Positions 17,544 through 18,818 of a stretch of 64,000 nucleotides of DNA are shown piece by piece. Position 1 is the stretch's first letter. Every line of letters begins with the position of its first letter. The position numbers and the translations under genes are program-made. Origin of the DNA: Anaerolineae bacterium (GTDB lineage Bacteria > Chloroflexota > Anaerolineae > Aggregatilineales > Aggregatilineaceae); the NCBI GenBank assembly GCA_018432315.1, contig JAHDLB010000002.1:1-64000 (forward strand), read 5' to 3'. The notes under the pieces are model-generated. The model had not been told where the DNA came from. It searched no databases and worked only from the letters and a program-made list of their open reading frames with translations.

Positions 17544-18545
17544 CTATTCTCCCACGCGGACGGTCCGGCCCGTGCGCGCAGCCAGGTACAGCGCGTCGAT
17601 GGCGCGCATGTTGCCGATGGCGTCTTCGGCGGGGAAGCGTGGCTCCTGGCCGGCGAGCAGGCGCTCGCTGAGATCGTCGATCATCAGCGTGTACGAATTG
17701 ACCGGCGCGATCTCGACGCTGGACCGCTGCTCCCAGTCCGGCCCGTACTGCCGGATGATGTTGGGCCGGTCGTCTTTGGGATTGTAGGCGTAGTCGGCCA
17801 GCAGCCAGCCCTCGGTGCCCACCAGCCGGTAGTAGCGATCCAGCGCCAGCACGAAGCCGCCGTGCAGCTTGGCGAACACCCCGCCCGGAAATTCGAGCGT
17901 GGCGACCAGCAGATCGTCGACGCCGGTCTGGCCCCAGACCGCCTGGGCGGTGACGCTCACCGGCTCTCCCCCGGTCACGTAGCGCGCCAGCGCGACCGGG
18001 TAGCAGCCGACGTCGTACAGCGCCCCGCCGCCTTTGGATGGGTCCCAGCGCACGTCGCCAGCCCGGCTGAGCGGGAACGAGAATCCGGCCTCGATCAGGC
18101 GCAGGTCGCCGATCGCGCCGCTCTGCAGCAGGTCGCGGGTTTGCTCGGCGTGGGGATGGTGGCGCCACTGGAACGCCTCGGCCAGCGTCACGCCCGCCGC
18201 ACGGCAGGCCGCGACCATCTCCTCAGCCTGGGCCGCGTCGAGGCCGAGCGGCTTTTCGCACAAAACGTGCTTGCCCGCCTGGGCCGCTTTGATCGTCCAT
18301 TCCTTGTGCAGGTGGTTGGGCAGCGGAATGTACACGGCGTCCACGTCCGGCGAGGCCAGCAGGCTCTCGTAGTCGCCAAAGCTGCGCGGGATGCCATTCT
18401 CGCTCGCGTACTGGCGGGCGCGGTCGGCGTCGCGGCTGGCGACGGCCACCAGCTCGCCGCGCTGCGCGGCATGGCAGGCGGGAATCCAGGTCGTGGCAGC
18501 GTGCCGCGAGGTGCTCAGAACGCCCCACCGAATGGTATCGCTCAT
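17544..18545 (-). CDS. Gfo/Idh/MocA-family NAD(P)-dependent oxidoreductase
   Basis: 333 aa from the chosen ATG. The Rossmann N-terminus is WGVLSTSRHAATTWIPA, the family EKP motif appears as VLCEKPLGLDAAQAEEM near residue 95, and the C-terminal alpha/beta domain contains FSFPLSRAGDVRWDPSKGGGALYDVGCYP, with GALYDVGCYPVALAR being the usual sugar-binding strand. The substrate is probably a sugar or cyclitol. The start MSDTIRWG has GGGAGGAAA upstream; 15 further upstream codons are not used. It is transcribed away from hisS. Confidence 0.88.
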   Translation of the reverse strand: MSDTIRWGVLSTSRHAATTWIPACHAAQRGELVAVASRDADRARQYASENGIPRSFGDYESLLASPDVDAVYIPLPNHLHKEWTIKAAQAGKHVLCEKPLGLDAAQAEEMVAACRAAGVTLAEAFQWRHHPHAEQTRDLLQSGAIGDLRLIEAGFSFPLSRAGDVRWDPSKGGGALYDVGCYPVALARYVTGGEPVSVTAQAVWGQTGVDDLLVATLEFPGGVFAKLHGGFVLALDRYYRLVGTEGWLLADYAYNPKDDRPNIIRQYGPDWEQRSSVEIAPVNSYTLMIDDLSERLLAGQEPRFPAEDAIGNMRAIDALYLAARTGRTVRVGE

Positions 18546-18622
18546 CGTGGTTTTTTCCTCCCGTCGGTCTCGTTGGTTCTTCGCGTGCATAGCGCCTGTA
18601 CTATACCCGATCGGCCAGCGGC

Positions 18623-18651
18623 TTTACAACGCCCACCGATCCGGCTATACT
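18623..18651 (+). promoter_or_regulatory. Promoter of the hisS attenuator leader
   Basis: A -35 TTTACA (18623-18628), an exact 17-nt spacer and a -10 TATACT (18646-18651) predict a transcript starting near 18658, about 26 nt before the leader peptide ATG. Confidence 0.8.
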
Positions 18652-18683
18652 CTGCGCAACGAATTGCACCAGGGGAACCAATC

Positions 18684-18734
18684 ATGCCAGCGCGGGTTAG
18701 CCTCCAGCACCATCATTCCGGCAACCGGCCCTAA
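18684..18734 (+). CDS. His leader peptide (attenuator of hisS)
   Basis: A 16-codon reading frame, MPARVSLQHHHSGNRP, with an AGGGGA ribosome site 7-8 nt before the ATG. Three consecutive histidine codons (CAC CAT CAT, 18708-18716) lie in the middle, as in classical his-operon leader peptides. It sits between a strong promoter and an intrinsic terminator, immediately ahead of hisS. The inferred job is to let a ribosome starved of charged tRNA-His stall and so prevent termination. The motif GGTTAG (18695-18700) inside the leader pairs with CTAACC (18731-18736) over the stop codon. Confidence 0.8.
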   Translation: MPARVSLQHHHSGNRP

Positions 18735-18761
18735 CCAGGCGACCCGTACCCCCTGCGTCGA

Positions 18762-18792
18762 AAGCGTGGACAGTGGCCGCCACGCTTTTTTT
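18762..18792 (+). terminator. Attenuator terminator upstream of hisS
   Basis: AAGCGTGG (18762-18769) pairs with CCACGCTT (18780-18787), followed by seven T (18786-18792). It lies between the leader peptide and the hisS ribosome site, so it would stop transcription before hisS unless an alternative fold forms. I could not settle the antiterminator pairing by eye. Confidence 0.85.
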
Positions 18793-18818
18793 GTGCCCAG
18801 TTCCAGGAGAGGATACCC

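Follow-up and report, generated by a model that had tools for sequence, protein, structure and literature searches.

A predicted histidine leader-peptide attenuator ahead of the sole hisS gene of a Chloroflexota genome

Layout of the hisS leader region

The window, i.e., the whole stretch of 64,000 nucleotides that was analyzed, carries hisS, the gene for histidyl-tRNA synthetase, which is present as a single copy (one match in its own genome). The leader region is the intergenic stretch between hisS and a divergent oxidoreductase gene, and its features are collected in Table 1. The promoter, the ribosome site, the open reading frame (ORF) with a run of histidine codons and the hairpin with seven T before hisS, all of which had been listed in the original prediction, are present. 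Two promoter-like sites occur in the upstream region, compared with 0.1 in shuffles, and the leaders of L005, L007 and L009 have similar TTTACA/TATACT boxes upstream, while several relatives carry Shine-Dalgarno sites of the GAGGAG or AGGAG type at the same position. A further promoter-like site on the minus strand, TTGTAA-18-TATAGT (window 18600-18629), overlaps the hisS promoter and probably serves the divergent oxidoreductase gene.

The terminator stem comprises nine pairs closed by a loop of 10 nt and runs directly into the T7 tail. A simple terminator scan returned none at the hisS leader because it did not accept loops longer than 8 nt; the terminator is evident from the fold and from an explicit search for its arms. 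Within the 64-kb window, the MPARVSLQHHHSGNRP frame is the sole short ORF in which at least two adjacent His codons are followed by a terminator.

Table 1. Features of the hisS leader region and flanking genes, in positions of the window
Feature	Position (strand)	Basis or detail
Gfo/Idh/MocA-type oxidoreductase gene, divergent from hisS	17544-18590 (-)	
Predicted promoter TTTACA-17-nt-TATACT	18623-18651 (+)	TTTACA 18623-18628, TATACT 18646-18651; 10/12 consensus matches
Expected transcription start	~18658-18660 (+)	inferred from predicted promoter
Leader-peptide Shine-Dalgarno AGGGGA	18671-18676 (+)	sequence
Leader ORF MPARVSLQHHHSGNRP, 16 codons	18684-18734 (+)	stop TAA 18732-18734; layout kept in ~50 species
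Segment 1	18693-18703 (+)	predicted pairing with 18737-18746 in untranslated leader; MFE fold
Three regulatory His codons CAC CAT CAT	18708-18716 (+)	His codons are the sole feature common to relatives' peptides
Segment 2, antiterminator 5' arm CGGCCCTAACCAGGC	18726-18740 (+)	spans leader stop codon; duplex and folding
Segment 3, antiterminator 3' arm	18764-18779 (+)	overlaps terminator 5' arm and loop; duplex and folding
Intrinsic terminator	18761-18792 (+)	hairpin 18761-18788, stem AAAGCGTGG/CCACGCTTT; T7 tail 18786-18792; fold and arm search
hisS ribosome-binding region	18805-18813 (+)	sequence
hisS, histidyl-tRNA synthetase, 441 aa	18819-20144 (+)	ATG 18819; TIGR00442 401 bits vs cut-off 286.75

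Conservation and history of the leader

Conservation in relatives had been set beforehand as a test on which the original prediction could fail. The search for hisS covered 61 relatives, about 300 genomes from the phylum and 150 from the order, most of them metagenome assemblies, and the upstream regions were oriented. In about 50 species, hisS is preceded by a short ORF in which His codons cluster and, at the same place as in the window, by a terminator; these species come from five families of the order (f1, f2, f3, f4 and f6), apart from three that lie outside it (L032, L043 and L147). The His run and the terminator are kept, and the rest of the peptide drifts, with histidine alone common to the leader peptides of relatives (MKRCHHFSV, MNRHHHLRLNR, MFHHHHWTEEQLF, MGHRHAHHHEKRRS, MFNTVHHHSSRKRG and MLRRHHHATQIP). 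The retention of histidine in drifting peptides points to selection that acts on the His codons, not on the RNA or peptide sequence. In L009, the layout is kept with one His codon only.

In a strict automatic count, 46 of 167 hisS upstream regions had two or more adjacent His codons with a terminator behind them, compared with 0.05 expected (the mean over dinucleotide shuffles, with a maximum of 2), and 28 of the 167 had three or more in a row, compared with none in shuffles; the same count on the reverse strand gave 1 and 0, respectively. That a chance short ORF merely lies beside a chance hairpin, for which nothing speaks beyond the small size of the parts, is refuted by this conservation and retains a negligible probability. 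It is also conceivable that another RNA element, such as autoregulation by HisRS or a divergent T-box, controls hisS and that a conserved RNA motif incidentally produces the His codons, since the genome holds about eight T-boxes and uses them for other synthetase genes. However, no Rfam match is found at hisS, the nucleotide sequence around the His codons shows no conservation among relatives, and the codons, either CAC or CAT, stand at varying distances from the terminator, which makes such an element very unlikely.

The distribution of the leader at hisS is patchy: it is absent from genus g5 of the same family, from families f7 and f8, and from nearly all of genus g35. The nearest relatives of the window, which belong to genus g5, have lost the leader, and their hisS immediately follows another gene. 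In a tree built from 70 hisS proteins, the leader label requires 11 changes, a number that is inflated because the detector misses some leaders, compared with about 23 for shuffled labels, and leaders occur on both sides of the drawn root. The simplest reading is early presence in the order followed by repeated loss, and repeated gain is a possible alternative history.

Two other features of these loci were noted. The motif CGACCAGGCGAT flanks the hisS terminator on both sides in L012 (G008); in L005 and L007, a similar motif, CAGGCGATA, lies after the terminator. In G037, G042, G055, G026, G059 and G021, which belong to families f3 and f5, the hisS match falls into two parts, covering approximately query 6-219 and query 210-428, and the open frames span 512-566 aa; the synthetase of these lineages may thus carry a central insert.

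Alternative folds and the proposed switch

The decisive partner of the terminator is segment 2, an antiterminator arm that the original prediction had overlooked; it comprises the end of the leader ORF, the stop codon and the next bases, and pairs with segment 3 at -19.8 kcal/mol. The prediction had instead proposed a stem between GGTTAG (18695-18700) and CTAACC (18731-18736). Both sequences are present; their pairing is absent from the predicted fold, in which it is replaced by the longer stem between segment 1 and 18737-18746 and by the antiterminator. Pairing of segment 1 would mask part of the antiterminator arm.

The same arrangement recurs with different sequences in relatives: GACCAACG at the stop codon pairs with CGUUGGUC in the terminator in L073, GACCAGC with GCUGGUC in L063, and AACUGACG with CGUUGGUU in L095. 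Across 53 species, the native duplex averages -20.4 kcal/mol, compared with -16.5 kcal/mol for arms exchanged among species (Wilcoxon p 4e-6, only indicative since the species are related to one another). The swaps include close relatives, and the test is thus conservative. In 26 of the 53 species, the antiterminator duplex beats 95% of shuffles.

Folding the leader with the ribosome at differing positions, a check foreseen in the original prediction, yielded a predicted switch; the ribosome placements assume an edge of 14 nt. With the RNA free from 18722 (A site on the first His codon), the antiterminator reaches a probability of 0.87 and the terminator 0.13, whereas a ribosome at the stop codon, which leaves the RNA free from 18744, gives a terminator probability of 1.0. 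The terminator also reaches 1.0 in the untranslated leader, where segment 1 is paired, and when the ribosome is placed on the last His codon with the 14-nt edge, such that the switch in the window depends on the edge chosen. Averaged over the 53 species, the terminator has a probability of 0.49 when the ribosome sits at the first His codon, compared with 0.93 when it sits at the stop codon (p 3e-9); shuffling the spacers raises the stalled value from 0.49 to 0.91 (p 1.5e-5).

A full switch at equilibrium is obtained in 23 of the 53 species, and in about half of all the species the equilibrium fold of the stalled state still favours the terminator. The equilibrium calculation ignores the order of transcription, in which the antiterminator is the RNA transcribed first, and the species that do not switch would rely on its forming first during transcription. 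The fit to the switch model is poorer for the long-leader species of family f3 and for the matches outside the order.

Based on the conserved parts, the antiterminator and the ribosome-position folds, we consider it very probable that the leader controls hisS as a ribosome-mediated transcription attenuator responding to charged tRNA-His, as originally proposed. In the mechanism that we infer, the predicted promoter would be used, with transcription beginning near 18658, and a ribosome would translate the 16-codon leader. When His-tRNA is ample, the ribosome would reach the stop codon at 18732 and cover segment 2, and the terminator hairpin would then form and end transcription at the T run. 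Under a shortage of His-tRNA, the ribosome would stall on CAC CAT CAT and leave segment 2 free to pair with segment 3, which would block the terminator and allow hisS to be transcribed. Since hisS charges tRNA-His, the attenuator would constitute a direct feedback loop.

Reinitiation after short leader genes that lie close to structural genes can increase translation (PMC4833913), and the ORF could likewise be a translational leader that aids ribosome reinitiation at hisS, with the hairpin being incidental. However, that effect was seen at about 10 nt, while 84 nt separate the leader stop from the hisS start, and the GC-rich stem and T7 sit between them. Moreover, reinitiation requires neither His codons nor a terminator nor an antiterminator, and all three are conserved; we therefore regard a purely translational role as very improbable and retain transcription attenuation as the preferred reading.

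Relation to known attenuators and to T-boxes in the same genome

Leader-peptide attenuation is a classical regulatory device. Among synthetase genes, it is known for pheST in gamma-proteobacteria and for trpS and leuS in Streptomyces (PMC1262725), which resemble hisS in being aminoacyl-tRNA synthetase genes under classical attenuation and differ in their Phe, Trp or Leu codons and in their phyla. His leaders of biosynthetic operons are known from Proteobacteria and some Firmicutes (PMC9413887). The enterobacterial his attenuator (RF00514) shares the His-codon peptide, the terminator, the antiterminator and the decisive role of ribosome position; however, it controls biosynthesis and not hisS. 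A likeness in layout, rather than in directly compared sequence, links the present leader to the Bacillus His leaders that Naville and Gautheret (2010, PMC2965389) placed ahead of hisS*, a paralogue of hisS, and of hisZ: there too, a short ORF with a His run and a terminator precede a hisS-family gene, also as a prediction. In Bacillus, the genes concerned are an extra hisS paralogue and hisZ, and the main hisS is under a T-box, whereas here the sole hisS is the target, in another phylum.

At the present locus, tandem His codons stand in a leader ORF before the cognate gene, an intrinsic terminator lies at a conserved position between the two, the predicted antiterminator and terminator are mutually exclusive, and the arm would be covered at the stop codon and free at the stall, given the assumed 14-nt edge. 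All testable class features fit and no Rfam family matches; the leader is best regarded as a member of the known attenuator class in another phylum. The proteobacterial His_leader model (RF00514) was rejected, since neither L001 nor L203 matches it up to E 0.5. A literature search on Chloroflexota leader peptides, which left most subscription papers outside its reach, found none describing hisS or his leaders. The finding thus extends leader-peptide attenuation to a phylum for which no report was found, with the sole synthetase gene as its target. Among the roughly 50 diverged natural switches, the peptide sequence varies and nothing but the His codons and the alternative folds persists; they form a good set for testing what an attenuator requires.

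The T-box (RF00230) also senses tRNA charging and controls synthetase genes, although it reads uncharged tRNA directly, without a peptide. The original prediction had seen no T-box at hisS; the T-box covariance model indeed gave no match upstream of the gene, although it found T-boxes elsewhere in the genome, and a T-box at hisS is rejected. None was found at 20 hisS loci without the leader either. T-boxes occur in all 31 relatives searched; those read in the own genome precede leuS, serS, trpE, and a methyltransferase gene followed by valS, all named from their translated sequences rather than by family search. A second candidate target of a leader peptide, pheS, has a T-box match instead, below the gathering score, and ilvB in the own genome has no Rfam match.

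The hisG-hisD-hisC operon of the own genome (L203) has its own His leader, MKPNTMQVHAHHHHLTTPERRSGGCCVCA, starting at approximately G000:C51:99631, with a strong terminator. The operon leader is conserved in families f1, f3 and f8, and at hisS family f8 has none. With His leaders at both hisS and hisGDC, the histidine genes would rely on sensing by ribosomes in a genome where T-boxes serve several other amino acids. We mildly favour the reading that, in these Chloroflexota lineages, ribosomes read the histidine supply at hisGDC and the sole hisS while T-boxes read several other amino acids in the same cell, and that their His leaders have an origin separate from those of Proteobacteria and Bacillus. 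The diverged set would also serve to test why one amino acid is sensed through ribosomes in a cell that possesses T-boxes.

Separately, the T-box ahead of leuS (L231:105-428, i.e., G000:C63:85054-85377 of the own genome; E 1e-15) contains an intact tRNA-Ala(GGC) gene (62 bits) within its stem III loop on the same strand. The arrangement also occurs at L315, L317 and L320 and in G007, G005, G008, G030 and G024; by coordinates, such nesting is found in nine genomes of two families, and a literature search found nothing resembling a tRNA gene nested in a T-box. In the own genome, the nested gene is the only GGC tRNA-Ala found by pattern, and the nesting may couple tRNA processing to the riboswitch.
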